A stretch of DNA of 64,000 nt from Halobellus captivus (lineage in GTDB: Archaea > Halobacteriota > Halobacteria > Halobacteriales > Haloferacaceae): the NCBI RefSeq assembly GCF_007655485.1, contig NZ_VJXQ01000006.1, positions 1-64,000 on the forward strand, given 5' to 3'. A program made the position numbers and the translations under genes. Position 1 is the stretch's first letter; every line of letters starts with the position of its first letter. This document shows positions 3,330 through 46,999 of the stretch, one piece after another. The notes under the pieces were generated by a model. The model was not told where the DNA came from. It saw only the letters and a program-made list of their open reading frames with translations, and ran no database searches.

Positions 3330-4370
3330 CTACTCGACTTCGACGAGCACCTTGATCTCCTCGCGCTCGTCCATCGCGCGGTATCCTTCGGCGACGTCCT
3401 CCAGTTCGACGGTCTTCGTAAAGACGGGAGCGGGGTCGAGCGTCCCCTGCAACACGTCATCCATCAACTCCTCCGCGTACGCGCGCACGGGAGCGACGCC
3501 GCCGCGGAGCGCGATATTGTCGCCGAAGAAGCCGAAGAGGTCCAAGCCGCCGTCGAGGCCGTGCGGGACGCCGACGTAGCCGACGGTTCCGCCCGGCCGA
3601 CAGACCGCCGCGGCCGTCTCCATCGACGAGGCCGCGCCGACGCACTCTAACACGTGGTTCGCGCCGCCGTTCGTCAGCTCCCGAACGCGTTCGACCGCCT
3701 CGTCGCCGCGCTCGGAGACGAGATCGGTCGCTCCGAACTCCGCCGCGAGTTCGAGTCGGTCGTCGTGGTGACCGACGGCGATGATCCGCTCCGCGCCGAG
3801 ACGGCGCGCCGCGAGGACGCCGCAGAGCCCGACGGCCCCGTCGCCGACGGCCACGCAGGTGTCGCCGGTTCCGACGCCCGCGTTGACCGCCGCGTGGTGG
3901 CCCGTCCCCATCACGTCCGTCAGCGGGAGCAGCGATCGGAGGGCGTCCTCGTCGTCGGCGTAGCGGTCCGGCACCCGGACGAGCGTGCCGTCGGCGTGCG
4001 GGCAGCGGATCTTCTCGCCCTGTGCGCCGCCGTTGTCGCCGCCCCAGCCGTCGCCGTTGACGCAGGAGGTGTGCAGTCCCTTCCGACAAAACTCGCAGAA
4101 ACCACAGCTGACTTTAAACGGGGCGAAGACGCGGTCGCCCGGTTCGACCGAGCGGACGTCGTCGCCGACGGCCTCGACGATTCCCATCGGCTCGTGACCC
4201 ACGGCTGAACCTGGGTCCCGGTCACTCTCGCCCCGATAGAACCACAGGTCCGACCCGCAGACGGCGGTGTGGGTGACGCGGACGAGTGCGTCCGTCGGCG
4301 ATTCGAGCTCCGGTTCGGCGACGTCTTCGACGCGGACGTCGCGAGGGCCGTGATAGACTGCGGCGCGCAT
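3330..4370 (-). CDS. Zinc-dependent alcohol dehydrogenase (MDR family)
   Basis: A 346-residue medium-chain dehydrogenase. Catalytic zinc residues are visible in AVCGSDLWFY (Cys 38) and VGHEPMG. The structural zinc site is the four-Cys run CGFCEFCRKGLHTSC near residues 90-105. The Rossmann fold begins at CVAVGDGAVGLCGV. The closest recognisable relatives are threonine/sorbitol dehydrogenase-like NAD(P) oxidoreductases; the substrate is not determined. It is transcribed away from the DUF7260-like gene, with a 131-base divergent gap that holds the operator at 4483. Confidence 0.9.
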   Translation of the reverse strand: MRAAVYHGPRDVRVEDVAEPELESPTDALVRVTHTAVCGSDLWFYRGESDRDPGSAVGHEPMGIVEAVGDDVRSVEPGDRVFAPFKVSCGFCEFCRKGLHTSCVNGDGWGGDNGGAQGEKIRCPHADGTLVRVPDRYADDEDALRSLLPLTDVMGTGHHAAVNAGVGTGDTCVAVGDGAVGLCGVLAARRLGAERIIAVGHHDDRLELAAEFGATDLVSERGDEAVERVRELTNGGANHVLECVGAASSMETAAAVCRPGGTVGYVGVPHGLDGGLDLFGFFGDNIALRGGVAPVRAYAEELMDDVLQGTLDPAPVFTKTVELEDVAEGYRAMDEREEIKVLVEVE

Positions 4371-42413: not shown

Positions 42414-44225
42414 TCAGCCGAGGAGCGTCGGGCCGAACAGGAGCAGCAGCAGCGACAGCAGCATCGTCACGCCTACGCCGGTCGTGATCGTGCTGACTAC
42501 CCGGTTTCGATCCGCGACGGGGAGTCGCGAGACGACCGCCTCGACGCTCGTCCGGAGGATTCGCCCCCCATCGAGCGGATAGCCCGGAATGCAGTTGAAC
42601 AGTCCGAGCTGAAGGTTGATCCACGCCATCCAGAAGGAGACGTTGGCGACGACGAACACCCCGGTTCCGAGGAATCCGAGCGGTCCTCCGATGCTGTAGA
42701 AGTTGAACACGCTCGCCGTGAATCCGGGGAAGTTCGGGATTCCGAGCACCAGCGAGGCGAGCGGGAGCACGAGCGAGATGTACACCGTCGCCAGCGGTGA
42801 GTCGCCGATGGCTCCCGAGAGCGCGGCCGCATCGGGGCCGCCGTCGCCGCCGAGCAGTTCGAGGTACGTCCCCGCCGGATACGACTGCGTGCCGAAGTCA
42901 GTTAGCAAGAGGCCGCTCGTCCCCGGGAAGATGTTGACGCCGAGGAATCCGCTGCCGTCTTGCGGGTTCTCTCCCAGTGTCACCTCGTAGGTGTCGATCT
43001 CGCCGTCGTGATACAGCTCGACGGTCACGGTCTCCCCCGGCTCGGTTCCGTCGAGTACGCGCGTCAGTTCCCTCGAGGAGACCACGCGCTCCCCGTCGAT
43101 CGCGGTCACGATCACGCCCGGCCCGGTGGGTGCGTCCGACGCCGCGAGCGGTCCGTCCTCGGCGATCTGCGTGAGGTACGCGCCGACCGGAATCGTCTCG
43201 GTCTGGCCATCGATTTCCAGTTCGACGAAGCGGTCCTCACCGACGACGTCCGCGAATCCAGCGCGCGTGTACACGGGCGACCCGTTGACCGCCGTGACGG
43301 GTTTCGCCTCTCCGTCGACACTCACGTTCGCGGGATTTCCTTCGACGTATCCGGTCACGACCAGCGACCGCTCGACGTCGACGGTCCGGGTCTCTCTGTC
43401 GGCGGCGCTCTCACCCCTGTCGAGTTCGACCGTCACGGTCCGCTCGTCGCTGGCGAGCAGCGCCGAATCCAATGAGCTCTCGTTGCCGACGGGGACGCCG
43501 TCGATGGCGGTGATGCGATCGCTCTGCGAGATTCCCGCTTCCGCGGCGGGCGAGCCGCCGTACGCCCCCTGGACGGCCATCCCCGGAGCGACGCCGACGC
43601 TGGCGATCACCGGTCCGAACAGCAGCGCGAACGCGAGGAACGTCACGAAGAAGTTGTTCGTCACGCCAGCGGCGAACATCCGCGTCCGACCGCCGCGACT
43701 CGCCTCCCGCTGGCTCTCCTCGTCCGGCTGGACGAACGCTCCGAGCGGGATAATCGTGAACAGAAAGACGCCCATCGACTCGATGTCGATCCCCTCGACC
43801 CGACAGAGGATCCCGTGTCCCCCCTCGTGGACCACGAGGCCGACGAGGAGCCCGAAGACGATTTCGGGCGCGACCGAGAGCGGTAGGAAGTCGTTGACCC
43901 CGGGGATGACGAGAAAGTTCTGCGGCTGGTTGACAGACGACGCCGGAGGCGGGTTTCTGGCGATTGCGATCCCCTGCACCAGGAGGAAGAAGAACATCCC
44001 CGCCATGATGACGAGCGCCGCGCCGACGCCGAGGTTGCTCCACGCCCGCCAGAACCGCTTCGGGGTCGCGATCCAGTCGATGAGGTCGCGCCCCCGCTTC
44101 GTGTGCACGGTCGTGAACGGCCCCTGTATGCGGATCGATTCGGGCAACAGCCCGCGCTGAGAGAGGTAGAGCGCGGCCGCCGAGTACGCGACGAGCCCGA
44201 TGAGCACCCACAGAAGCGTATTCAT
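42414..44225 (-). CDS. Site-2 protease (M50) with two PDZ domains
   Basis: A 603-residue intramembrane metalloprotease. The zinc site is VHEGGHGILCRVEG in an N-terminal helix, and the third ligand is in NCIPGYPLDGGRI near the C-terminus. Two PDZ-like domains lie between (VQGAYGGSPAAEAGISQSDRITAIDG and GPGVIVTAIDGERVVSSRELTRVL). Such proteases release membrane-bound regulators. The ATG at 44225 opens with a helix (MNTLLWVLIGLVAYSAAALYL) and is preferred to a start 45 bases upstream. Confidence 0.93.
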   Translation of the reverse strand: MNTLLWVLIGLVAYSAAALYLSQRGLLPESIRIQGPFTTVHTKRGRDLIDWIATPKRFWRAWSNLGVGAALVIMAGMFFFLLVQGIAIARNPPPASSVNQPQNFLVIPGVNDFLPLSVAPEIVFGLLVGLVVHEGGHGILCRVEGIDIESMGVFLFTIIPLGAFVQPDEESQREASRGGRTRMFAAGVTNNFFVTFLAFALLFGPVIASVGVAPGMAVQGAYGGSPAAEAGISQSDRITAIDGVPVGNESSLDSALLASDERTVTVELDRGESAADRETRTVDVERSLVVTGYVEGNPANVSVDGEAKPVTAVNGSPVYTRAGFADVVGEDRFVELEIDGQTETIPVGAYLTQIAEDGPLAASDAPTGPGVIVTAIDGERVVSSRELTRVLDGTEPGETVTVELYHDGEIDTYEVTLGENPQDGSGFLGVNIFPGTSGLLLTDFGTQSYPAGTYLELLGGDGGPDAAALSGAIGDSPLATVYISLVLPLASLVLGIPNFPGFTASVFNFYSIGGPLGFLGTGVFVVANVSFWMAWINLQLGLFNCIPGYPLDGGRILRTSVEAVVSRLPVADRNRVVSTITTGVGVTMLLSLLLLLFGPTLLG

Positions 44226-44551
44226 TGGAAAAGCGAACGAGTCGAGCGCAAAAAGGTGTTCCTCATCCACTTTTTTCTCGGGGGTCCTCGGCGACGGCAG
44301 AGCCGTCGCCTCGACCCCTCGACAAAAACCTGGAGGAAAAAAGGCCGCTCGGCTCGCTCCGGCGAGCCTCGTGGTGCGACCGCTGGCTACTCTGCCGCTA
44401 CCTCACCGCTCCGCTCCGCTCCACCCCGCTCTGCCCCGCACCGCTTCACTGCGTACGCTCTGCTCCGCATCCGCGACGGCAACATCTCCGTTCTGCAGTT
44501 GCGCCTCCGTGGTGCGAACCGTTTTAACGCATTCGGAAGAATTGCCCGTAG
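44226..44551. other. Divergent gap holding structured repeat copy A
   Basis: No gene is supported. The interval carries repeat copy A (44267-44375), then a pyrimidine-rich stretch (repeats of CCGCTCCGCTC), and a TATA-like GTTTTAACG at about 44520-44528 that fits a leaderless start of the LURP-one gene at 44552. Confidence 0.6.
44267..44375 (+). repeat. Structured repeat, copy A
   Basis: Order: CCACTTTTTT; a hairpin (44281-44318) with stem GGCGACGGC-AGA-GCCGTCGCC extended by GGGGTC/GACCCC; the single-stranded CAAAAACCTGGAGGAAAAAA; a second hairpin GGCTCGC-TCCG-GCGAGCC (44351-44368); ending CGTGGT. The unpaired blocks are shared with copy B at 45093, whereas hairpin 1 differs in sequence but not in design. 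Confidence 0.75.
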
Positions 44552-45091
44552 ATGTTCGAGAGCCGCTCCTACGAGGTCCGCCAGAAGATCGCGATCGGGA
44601 ACAAGTATCGCGTCTACGAGGACGACACGCCGATCCTCGAATCCGCACAGAAGAAGCTCCGACTCAAGGAAGATTTCCGCTTTACCGACCCCGACACCGG
44701 AGACGAACGGTTCCGCGTCAAAGCCGACAGCATCCTCGATATCTCCGCCGCGTACGACATCGTCGACTCACAGACCGACGAACGCGTCGGCTCGGTCAAA
44801 CGCGAAGCGATCTCGTTTTTCAAACACGAGTACACGCTTCTCGGCCCCGACGGCGACGTCGTCGCCACGATCCGCGAGGACAACGTTCCGCTCGCGATCG
44901 CCCGACGCCTGCTGACGACGCTGATCCCGTTCTCCTACGAGATCGTGACGCCGGACGGCCGCGGGGTCGGACAGGCCAAGGGCGCGTTTTCGCTCCGAGA
45001 CAAATACTCGATCGAACTCCACGGAGACGACATCGACCCCCGACTCGCCGTCGTCGGTGTCGTCGTCATCGACGCGATCGAAGAAAACTAA
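44552..45091 (+). CDS. LURP-one-related/scramblase-like fold protein
   Basis: A 179-residue beta-barrel protein with the repeated strands of the LOR/Tubby-like fold: QKIAIGNKYRVYEDDTPILESAQKK, AAYDIVDSQTDERVGSVKREAISFFKHEYTLLGPDGDVVATIRED, and KGAFSLRDKYSIELHGDDIDPRLAVVGVVVIDAIEEN. Prokaryotic members have no assigned function. The gene is flanked by two copies of the structured repeat; the second begins two bases after its stop codon. Confidence 0.88.
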   Translation: MFESRSYEVRQKIAIGNKYRVYEDDTPILESAQKKLRLKEDFRFTDPDTGDERFRVKADSILDISAAYDIVDSQTDERVGSVKREAISFFKHEYTLLGPDGDVVATIREDNVPLAIARRLLTTLIPFSYEIVTPDGRGVGQAKGAFSLRDKYSIELHGDDIDPRLAVVGVVVIDAIEEN

Positions 45092-45092
45092 C

Positions 45093-45187
45093 CCACCTTT
45101 TTACTGCGGAGGGGTCCGACGGACCCCTCCGCGCAAAAACCTGGAGGGAAAAAAGACCCGCGAGGCTCGCAAAGCGAGCCTCGCGGT
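45093..45187 (+). repeat. Structured repeat, copy B
   Basis: Order: CCACCTTTTT; perfect hairpin GCGGAGGGGTCC-GAC-GGACCCCTCCGC (45106-45132); CAAAAACCTGGAGGGAAAAA; perfect hairpin GCGAGGCTCGC-AAA-GCGAGCCTCGC (45160-45184); ending CGGT. Lies between the convergent LURP-one and lysS genes, where it could terminate both. Confidence 0.78.
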
Positions 45188-45262
45188 ACAATCGCTAGCG
45201 GCTTCCGCACCGCCTCCGCGACCGCGACAGCACCGTACCGCCTCCACGACCGCACCGCGTCG

Positions 45263-46999
45263 CTACGATTCGCGGCGCAGCCTGGCGACGACGAACTCGG
45301 TGTCGAGTTCGCCGAGGAACTCTCCCAGTCTCGGCCCCTGCGGCTGATCGAAGAAGAGCAGATACCCCGACTCGAAGAAGTCGCCGATCTCGATGTCGTG
45401 CGCTCGGGCGGTCTCGTACATCTCGCCCTGGATCTCCTCGCCGTCGTGCCCGGCCTCGACGTACGCCGCGAGGTCGTCGAGCGCGGCTGCGACGTCGTCG
45501 TCGAACTCGACGTCCGGGAGACCCTCCTGCAGGCGGTAGTTGTACGCGTTGTCCTCGCGGACCGCCCACGCGCGCGCCCGGTCGACCCGTTCGAGCGCCT
45601 CCTCGATCGCCCATTCGGGCGTGTCGTCGTCGACGTACCCCTCGTTCCGCGCCATCTCGATCCGCAGGTCGCGGTCGTCGGTCATCCCGAGAACGGCCGC
45701 GAAGGTGTACGGCAGTCGGACGCGATCTGCGCGCACCTCGCTGACGACGAACGGATAGGCCCGCTCGGCGAACGCCGTCAACGCCTCGTCGTCGACGTCG
45801 CCGAAGTACGCTCGCTCGAAGCGATCGAAGTCGTCGACGAGCTGATCCAACCGGGAGATGTCGAGATCACGCGCCTTCCGCGGGTTGAGCGCGAAGAAGT
45901 ACTTGAGCACCTCCGGCTCCAACAGTTCGAGCATTTCTGATACCGTGACGATGTTCCCCGCCGACGAGGAGAGCGCCTCGCCGTTGAGCGTGAACCACTC
46001 GTACACCATCGGAACGGGCGGCTCGATGCCGAGAACGTTGCGCGCGATGTCCTCGCCGGAGGGCCACGACCCCTCGGCGTGGTCCTTCCCGAACGGCTCG
46101 AAGTCGACCCCGAGCACCTGCCACTGCGCGGGCCACTCGAACCGCCACGGGAGCTTTCCGTCGCGGAACGTCGCGGTCCCCTCGTGGCCGCACCCCTCGA
46201 TGGTGTTGTCGCCGACGGTCATATCCGTGCAGACGTACTCGACGGTTTCGGCGTCGAGGTCCACCGACGTGACCGTCTCGGTGATCTTCCCGCAGTTCTC
46301 ACAGACCGGATTGAACGGGACGTAGTCTGCGTCGACCTTCGATTGGTACTCGGATAACACCTCGCGCGCGACGTCGACGCGTTCGAGGACGTGACCGACG
46401 ACCTCGTCGAAGGTGCCCTCCTCGTACATCTCCGTGTTCGAGAGCATCTCCACCGGGACGTCGAGTCGGTCCGCGTCGGCTTTCAGGAGCGCCGCGAAGT
46501 GCGCCGCGTACGACTCCGACTCGCCGAAGGGGTCGGGGATGTCGGTGTACGGCTTCCCCAGGTTCCGCCCGAGCGCCCCGGCGTCGACGTCGCCGAGGCC
46601 GACGATGTTGCCGTCGACGTCCGCGAGCTTTCGCGGCAGCTTTCGGAGCGGGTCGCGGTCGTCGCTCGTGAAGACCTGTCGAACCTCGTGACCGCGCTCC
46701 CGCAGGACGGCGGCGACGAAGTACCCGCGCATAATCTCGTTGAAGTTGCCGAGGTGTGCGACGCCGGAGGGAGAGACGCCGCCTTTGATCACGATCGGGT
46801 CCTCCGGACCCCGCGACTCGATCTCGTCTGCAACCTCGTCGGCCCAGAACGCGTGCCGCGGTTCGTCGTTCCCGCTGTTCGATTCGCGTCCGTTGTCCGA
46901 TTCGCGTCCGTTGTCCGATTCGCGCCCGTTGTTCGGTTCGCCTTCACTGTCTCCACCGTTCTCGTCGGTAGAGACTTCGACGTCGGATTCTCCGCCCAT
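45263..46999 (-). CDS. lysS: Lysyl-tRNA synthetase, class I
   Basis: A 578-residue class I enzyme charging tRNA-Lys. HIGH-like motif is HLGNFNE within SPSGVAHLGN; the KMSKS-like motif reads LSSSAGN, with Ala in place of the usual Lys. A Cys-rich zinc region (CENCGK ... GCGH) lies near residues 245-285. The first 48 residues are a low-complexity extension with three NGRESD repeats from an 18-base tandem repeat. The start follows the pyrH stop by three bases, so the pair is one operon. Confidence 0.95.
   Translation of the reverse strand: MGGESDVEVSTDENGGDSEGEPNNGRESDNGRESDNGRESNSGNDEPRHAFWADEVADEIESRGPEDPIVIKGGVSPSGVAHLGNFNEIMRGYFVAAVLRERGHEVRQVFTSDDRDPLRKLPRKLADVDGNIVGLGDVDAGALGRNLGKPYTDIPDPFGESESYAAHFAALLKADADRLDVPVEMLSNTEMYEEGTFDEVVGHVLERVDVAREVLSEYQSKVDADYVPFNPVCENCGKITETVTSVDLDAETVEYVCTDMTVGDNTIEGCGHEGTATFRDGKLPWRFEWPAQWQVLGVDFEPFGKDHAEGSWPSGEDIARNVLGIEPPVPMVYEWFTLNGEALSSSAGNIVTVSEMLELLEPEVLKYFFALNPRKARDLDISRLDQLVDDFDRFERAYFGDVDDEALTAFAERAYPFVVSEVRADRVRLPYTFAAVLGMTDDRDLRIEMARNEGYVDDDTPEWAIEEALERVDRARAWAVREDNAYNYRLQEGLPDVEFDDDVAAALDDLAAYVEAGHDGEEIQGEMYETARAHDIEIGDFFESGYLLFFDQPQGPRLGEFLGELDTEFVVARLRRES
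46880..46933 (-). repeat. Three 18-bp tandem repeats in lysS
   Basis: Units at 46880-46897, 46898-46915 and 46916-46933 based on CGATTCGCGTCCGTTGTC; the first two are identical. They encode NGRESD repeats in the N-terminal extension and could vary in number between strains without changing frame. Confidence 0.85.

Follow-up and report, generated by a model that had tools for sequence, protein, structure and literature searches.

The two structured repeats that flank a small gene in the window (by which we mean the whole 64,000-nucleotide stretch of Halobellus captivus DNA that was analysed) belong to a dispersed family that we read, with a probability of about two in three, as bidirectional archaeal-type terminators that occupy vertically inherited sites and whose central hairpin has repeatedly been replaced as a block. 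Terminators of haloarchaea are mostly regarded as plain T-tracts, but this family is recognisable, conserved, possibly two-way and can be annotated as such. Judging from the sequence comparisons, what is new here would be the way in which the repeat evolves, namely by an exchange of hairpin blocks at fixed sites.

Both copies, A (44267-~44374) and B (45093-~45186), follow a common order of CCACYTTTTT, hairpin 1, CAAAAACCTGGAGG leading into an A-tract, and hairpin 2 (Table 1), and the predicted fold of each contains two hairpins. An earlier note on this DNA had already placed the two repeats correctly on either side of the gene, and the order of parts that it described is confirmed. The G(T)GGT-like end that it mentioned corresponds to a GCGGTAC end, with the correction that a weakly common tail (~RATYRCTGGYGG) follows, and after it a GC-rich tract. 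Such GC-rich low-complexity tracts (CCGCACCGCCTCCGCGAC...) are found 3' of hairpin 2 at 44375-44470 and 45190-45265, as well as at many other copies, and may be a further part of the repeat unit.

Table 1. Features of the two repeat copies and the adjoining genes (positions in the window).
Feature	Position	Strand	Basis
Site-2-type protease gene, start 41 nt from copy A	42414..44225	-	Peptidase_M50 and PDZ matches
Copy A, CCAC	44267-44270	+	sequence
Copy A, T6	44271-44276	+	sequence
Copy A, 5' arm CCACTTTTTT, T-tract toward transcripts from the left	44267..44276	+	sequence; family-wide arm covariation
Copy A, hairpin 1 of kind d (GGGGGTCCTCGG...CGACCCCTCGA)	44277..44322	+	fold; kind assignment
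Copy A, CAAAAACCTGGAGG	44323-44336	+	sequence; A-tract continues to 44342
Copy A, core CAAAAACCTGGAGGAAAAAA, 3' arm plus A-tract	44323..44342	+	sequence; genome core count
Copy A, hairpin 2 (GGCCGCTCGGCTCGCTCCGGCGAGCCTCGTGG)	~44343..44374	+	fold
Copy A, tail (GCGACCGCTGGC...), weakly common to other copies	44375..44395	+	tail comparison
Bracketed gene, 179 aa	44552..45091	+	ORF
Copy B, CCACC	45093-45097	+	sequence; 1 nt past TAA of the bracketed gene
Copy B, T5	45098-45102	+	sequence
Copy B, 5' arm CCACCTTTTT, 1 nt past the stop codon	45093..45102	+	sequence
Copy B, hairpin 1 of kind a (GCGGAGGGGTCC GAC GGACCCCTCCGC)	45103..45133	+	fold
Copy B, CAAAAACCTGGAGG core	45134-45147	+	sequence; A-tract to ~45153
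Copy B, core CAAAAACCTGGAGGGAAAAA	45134..45153	+	sequence; core counts
Copy B, hairpin 2 (CCGCGAGGCTCGC AAA GCGAGCCTCGCGG)	~45157..45186	+	fold
Copy B, tail (TACAATCGCTAGCGGCTTCCGC...), running toward the lysS 3' end (- strand)	45187..45210	+	sequence; tail comparison
Lysyl-tRNA synthetase gene lysS (class I), convergent with the bracketed gene	45263..46999	-	tRNA-synt_1f match

The core pattern, with at most one mismatch, matches four times in the window compared with 0.34 expected, a number reached in none of 100 shuffles, and the two exact matches among these are copies A and B. In the genome from which the window comes (G000; 3.35 Mb), CAAAAACCTGGA has nine exact occurrences against none for the reversed control, and allowing 1-2 mismatches gives ~15 recognisable copies. 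Across the order, the exact core CAAAAASSTGGASSNAAAA is present in 60 of 392 genomes and 26 of 95 genera (reversed control zero in every genome), while the exact 20-mer CAAAAACCTGGAGGGAAAAA is confined, among named records, to Halobellus, Haloferax and Halogeometricum; the Haloferax species with copies include H. larsenii, H. elongans and H. marinum. The cores fall into two classes, I being CAAAAACCT(G/A)GAGGGAAAA and II being CAAAAAGCTGGACCAAAAA; since all copies were collected by searching for core patterns, forms with other cores were missed and the family is larger than counted. We annotated 123 copies among 12 Halobellus genomes, using a simple codon-based gene caller whose gene calls are approximate. 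Tandem cores, two or three in a row and ~97-109 nt (one element length) apart, were seen at L220 (G271), L223 (G348), G272:C1:64034-64149, G024:C22:647-768 and G030:C1:1583711-1583833. An Rfam scan of the window at the gathering score returned two tRNAs only, leaving the repeat unmatched, and our literature searches found no description of this hairpin repeat family.

In the annotated Halobellus copies the parts come in the order stop codon, 0-10 nt, CCACCTTTTT, hairpin 1, CAAAAACCTGGAGGGAAAAA or its class II form, hairpin 2, GCGGTAC and tail. Hairpin 1 is 22-96 nt long, usually 30-52, and folds strongly (median z -4.1, with 93% below -1.5; 123 copies for both), whereas hairpin 2 is less structured (median z -1.7). 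In the arms TTTTT is paired to AAAAA and, further out, CCA to TGG. The second pair of this outer arm covaries, being CCA/TGG in 99 copies and CTA/TAG in 14, and the change spans different kinds of hairpin and eight sites (Fisher p 4e-13, a value overstated by the non-independence of the copies). Between the T/A and the outer helices, CC stands opposite CC in 81 copies and opposite GC in 29. A GG, with which the palindrome would be complete, does not occur in any copy; it was permitted by the search pattern, so that its absence is no artefact of the search, though the pattern did limit other variants. This mismatch (44270-44336 and 45096-45147 in the window) suggests an internal loop that has been kept, or perhaps a protein-binding site. 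The hairpin is slightly more stable on the strand opposite the upstream gene than on the sense strand. Selection on the sense RNA was considered and rejected, as neither the G-U counts nor the strand energies give the sense strand any advantage. At three loci hairpin 1 has grown to ~95 nt by two extra hairpins, and this enlarged composite is nearly the same at the two G087 loci (L165, - strand near 2513; L157, - strand near 2344) and related at the one in G091 (L194, - strand near 695).

The placement of the copies favours a terminator. Of the 110 copies whose neighbours are clear, 72 start 0-10 nt past a stop codon on the same strand, compared with 6.0 expected for copies placed and oriented at random within those intervals, and five further copies come after tRNA ends; in most copies the T5 lies ~6-15 nt past the stop codon. 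Those directly behind genes face a convergent gene in 41 cases and a tandem gene in 31. A further 29 turn their 5' side toward a divergent gene, many of them ~40-46 nt from its start codon and hence just outside the presumed promoter, and some of these are simply copies in reverse orientation behind the gene on the other side. About 15 copies (roughly 12%) lie between two outward-pointing genes, where no annotated gene needs a terminator; these copies and the ones beside divergent genes count against the terminator reading. On whether copies occur only as terminators after genes, a check that the earlier note had proposed, the picture is mixed: roughly two thirds follow a gene or tRNA directly, and about a quarter are beside a divergent promoter. 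The window holds one of each sort, copy A having its 5' side toward a divergent gene and copy B lying between convergent genes. In other genera the pattern is weaker, with 16 of 42 sampled copies directly behind a gene, as judged from short loci with gene calls of the same approximate sort.

With this design the polymerase would first run into a T-tract whichever side it came from, CCACCTTTTT on one strand and TTTTTCCCTCCAGGTTTTT on the other, with the palindrome between these opposed T-tracts and the second hairpin on one flank. Read on the - strand, the core is usually TTTTTCCC (69 of 123 copies), and in copy A its complement TTTTTTCCTCCAGGTTTTTG likewise puts two T-tracts on that strand; the T5 thus meets transcripts from the left and the two T-tracts meet those from the right, each ahead of the palindrome. 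In a bacterial two-way terminator the hairpin comes first, the reverse of the order here. Since the T-tract precedes the hairpin, the latter should not be needed for T-tract termination; it could back up leaky termination or, perhaps, be maintained by the recombination itself. In Haloferax volcanii, intergenic RNA ends carry a T-stretch and a T5C insert gave 95% termination in vivo (PMC7237163). The proposal that copy B is a bidirectional terminator is supported by its position, by T-tracts on both strands and by the convergent genes around it, and this is probably what it is. On the other hand, copy A is unlikely to be a leader element of the protease gene, as had also been proposed: it begins upstream, 41 nt from the start codon and beyond the presumed promoter, and we would expect it to be absent from a leaderless protease transcript. 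Beside divergent promoters such an element might rather act as an insulator against read-through. We infer both the termination activity and the insulator role from the sequence and its arrangement.

Strong hairpins directly behind stop codons might also bring to mind a 3' UTR RNA element, either a processing site or a stabiliser, in place of a terminator. We consider this improbable, because the first T-tract precedes both hairpins and the terminated RNA would hold neither of them, because some copies adjoin divergent promoters, and because folding shows no preference for the sense strand.

With the terminator reading goes a second component, the history of the sites. An orthologous copy in another Halobellus was found for 107 of the 123 copies, in 28 groups (for later counts the group at the window locus was divided in two, as sites A and B), and the kind of hairpin 1 differs in 124 of 179 orthologous site pairs (69%). 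The hairpins 1 of copies A and B are themselves two recurring kinds, each seen at other loci, and kind a is the commonest in the window's genome (6 of 15 copies). Orthologous site comparison finds other kinds at the site of copy A in sister species: f in G087, G088, G092, G096 and G086, and a in G093, with d in G000 and G089. In G089, hairpin 2 of this site is as in G087 and G088, but hairpin 1 and the core differ. Of 48 orthologous pairs from close relatives, 20 are swapped. The upstream flank has a mean identity of 86% in swapped and unswapped pairs alike, while that of hairpin 1 is 89% in unswapped but 57% in swapped pairs, that of the core 96% and 85%, and that of hairpin 2 85% and 79%; the baselines are 56% for unrelated kinds of hairpin 1 and 68% for hairpin 2 of unrelated loci. 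These figures indicate short-tract block exchange: most sites are old and vertically inherited, and what changes is the central hairpin, swapped as a block while its surroundings are kept. The claim that hairpin 1 keeps its design while its sequence varies was right as to the design (median folding z -4.1, n=123), but the variation consists mostly of block replacement by other recurring hairpins and not simply of point changes. Since whole hairpins are exchanged, ordinary alignment of hairpin 1 is unsuitable.

The hairpins also resemble one another within genomes. Matches of kind within a genome number 180, compared with 126 +/- 10 if, site by site, the kinds are permuted among the genomes (0 of 2000 shuffles), although these kinds were drawn up manually once the data were known. 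The nearest hairpin 1 at another site comes from the same genome 33 times, against 15.3 +/- 3.5 expected (200 shuffles, maximum 27), in a test that is independent of the kinds; for both counts, copy pairs share ancestry and the probabilities are guides only. Eight copies were unassigned in the first typing, and a recount with four of them assigned and the rest left out had the same outcome. A hybrid hairpin 1 at L155 (G087; - strand near 3932) combines the 5' arm of kind c with a 3' arm of kind h by way of an inner stem common to both, suggesting that recombination took place within hairpin 1. Homogenisation within genomes, block replacement and the absence of the repeat from outgroup loci are all apparent from the sequences, as are the position of the repeat, its structure, the compensated change in its arms and the conservation of its sites.

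Haloarchaea are polyploid and carry out efficient gene conversion. Hairpins from other copies would most likely replace the central one through short-tract non-allelic recombination of this sort, and each genome would in this way drift to its own set of hairpins; we infer this mechanism from the pattern of replacement. The tract exchanged among the Halobellus copies is only ~35-60 nt, which is at odds with the long conversion tracts of H. volcanii, where two sites separated by 600 bp almost always convert together (PMC8223754). Conversion between non-allelic copies may simply be far shorter than between chromosome copies, which seems more likely than a special hairpin process. Such a process would make the central hairpin a minimal mobile unit of 35-60 nt, copied by dedicated means from elsewhere in the genome into a resident terminator by way of arms of ~10 paired bases, with flanks and second hairpin untouched, and this we regard as quite unlikely. 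Hairpin exchange at fixed sites combined with homogenisation within genomes preserves a clean trace, left in nature, of exchange over very short tracts among polyploid archaea, and the present dataset makes the conflict with the long measured tracts testable.

Alternatively, the family could be a mobile repeat without a transposase, comparable to the PATEs or small mobile repeats of Haloquadratum, with a preference for insertion behind genes that gives it a terminator-like look as a by-product. The copies are indeed dispersed, they have been gained at loci that are free of the repeat in outgroups, several genomes have tandem copies ~100 nt apart, and the composite hairpin 1 recurs with the same extra hairpins at two G087 loci and in related form in G091. 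However, 107 of 123 copies are at old sites common to several species, so that little current insertion is seen, and it is the central hairpin that changes, not the presence of the repeat. The arms covary and their pairing is kept, the copy-rich genomes have no Y1 transposase genes, and no full-length transposase-bearing element was noticed, albeit without a systematic search. On balance a mobile repeat of this kind seems unlikely, and we retain the terminator with an exchangeable hairpin.

As to the bracketed gene, the earlier name LURP-one is unsupported, the Pfam and NCBIfam scans having given no match for it. Orthologues from sister species are 82-92% identical to it, and those from other genera 65-75%. 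Haloferax, Halogeometricum, G063 and G064 likewise have the protease gene, the bracketed gene and lysS in this order, all of them without a copy at the locus, and the gap from the gene to lysS is only 15-46 nt in G063, G064, G038, G042, G041 and G035. With the same gene order in genera that lack the repeat there, the gene must be ancestral at the locus and the repeats later. Within Halobellus, both copies flank the gene in G000, G092, G096 and G086. Genome G093 lacks the gene and the second copy, and its sister G092 has the gene (protease tree, support 0.97), so the absence in G093 is derived. The one copy remaining there has the 5' flank of copy A and its first tail bases, followed by the lysS side, and the junction lies inside the repeat tail and a low-complexity tract; this would be as expected for a deletion between direct copies, which is the probable mechanism. 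On a separate branch, G087, G088 and G089 are also without the gene. Our reading of these comparisons is that the gene was lost in some Halobellus and not carried in by a cassette. Copies in direct orientation around a gene may recombine and delete that gene, and such repeats can therefore shape gene content.

The earlier note had suggested a possible mobile cassette, with the repeats at its ends and the bracketed gene inside. Two direct copies do surround one gene that is present in some Halobellus and absent from others, and close copy pairs are above chance in G000 (4 within 4 kb vs 0.25 expected, P 0.00035). Nevertheless, Haloferax, Halogeometricum and other genera have the gene between the same neighbours with no repeat at the locus, the genes inside the other close pairs are unrelated to the bracketed gene and to each other, and the absence in G093 is derived, all of which makes a cassette very improbable. 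Comparison with outgroup sites, which are too diverged to settle the matter, gave no obvious target duplication at the locus of the kind that a MITE would show. The close pairs in G000 surround one to a few genes each (C1:383170/384573, C15:178900/182473, C15:395090/396702 and C18:44323/45134), and some reappear beside the same genes in other species.

Several known elements resemble the family in part. The mitochondrial double-hairpin elements likewise have two hairpins, variable sequence with a conserved design, and suspected mobility, but they belong to another domain of life and, to our knowledge, have not been described as gene-end terminators. The bacterial REP sequences associated with RAYTs are also short extragenic palindromes between genes, but the Halobellus repeat has no GTAG-type tag and a low copy number. 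Matches to PF01797 (Y1 transposase) are absent from G000, G087 and G093, which have ~15-22 repeat copies each, and number 10-17 in G095 and G097-G100, none of which has a copy. Because these transposase genes are missing where the repeat is common and plentiful where it has no copies, an origin of the RAYT/REP type was rejected. Closer in some respects is SMR-A of Haloquadratum walsbyi (PMC3119063), which is ~110 bp long, has inverted repeats and no transposase, and is dispersed in a haloarchaeal genome. SMR copies, however, are commonly >95% alike, and SMR-A inserts into PATEs and IS605-type elements (PMC3119063); by this description they would differ from the copies here, which follow host genes, vary in hairpin 1 and are found at old sites that species share. 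The H. volcanii study (PMC7237163) gives T-stretch, AGATC and hairpin motifs, and the part of it consulted mentions no repeat family. The T5C terminators of that study share with the repeat a T5 followed by C directly behind genes and no need of an upstream hairpin, but the Halobellus repeat has two opposed T-tracts framing a palindrome, within a conserved repeat of ~100 nt that includes a second hairpin.
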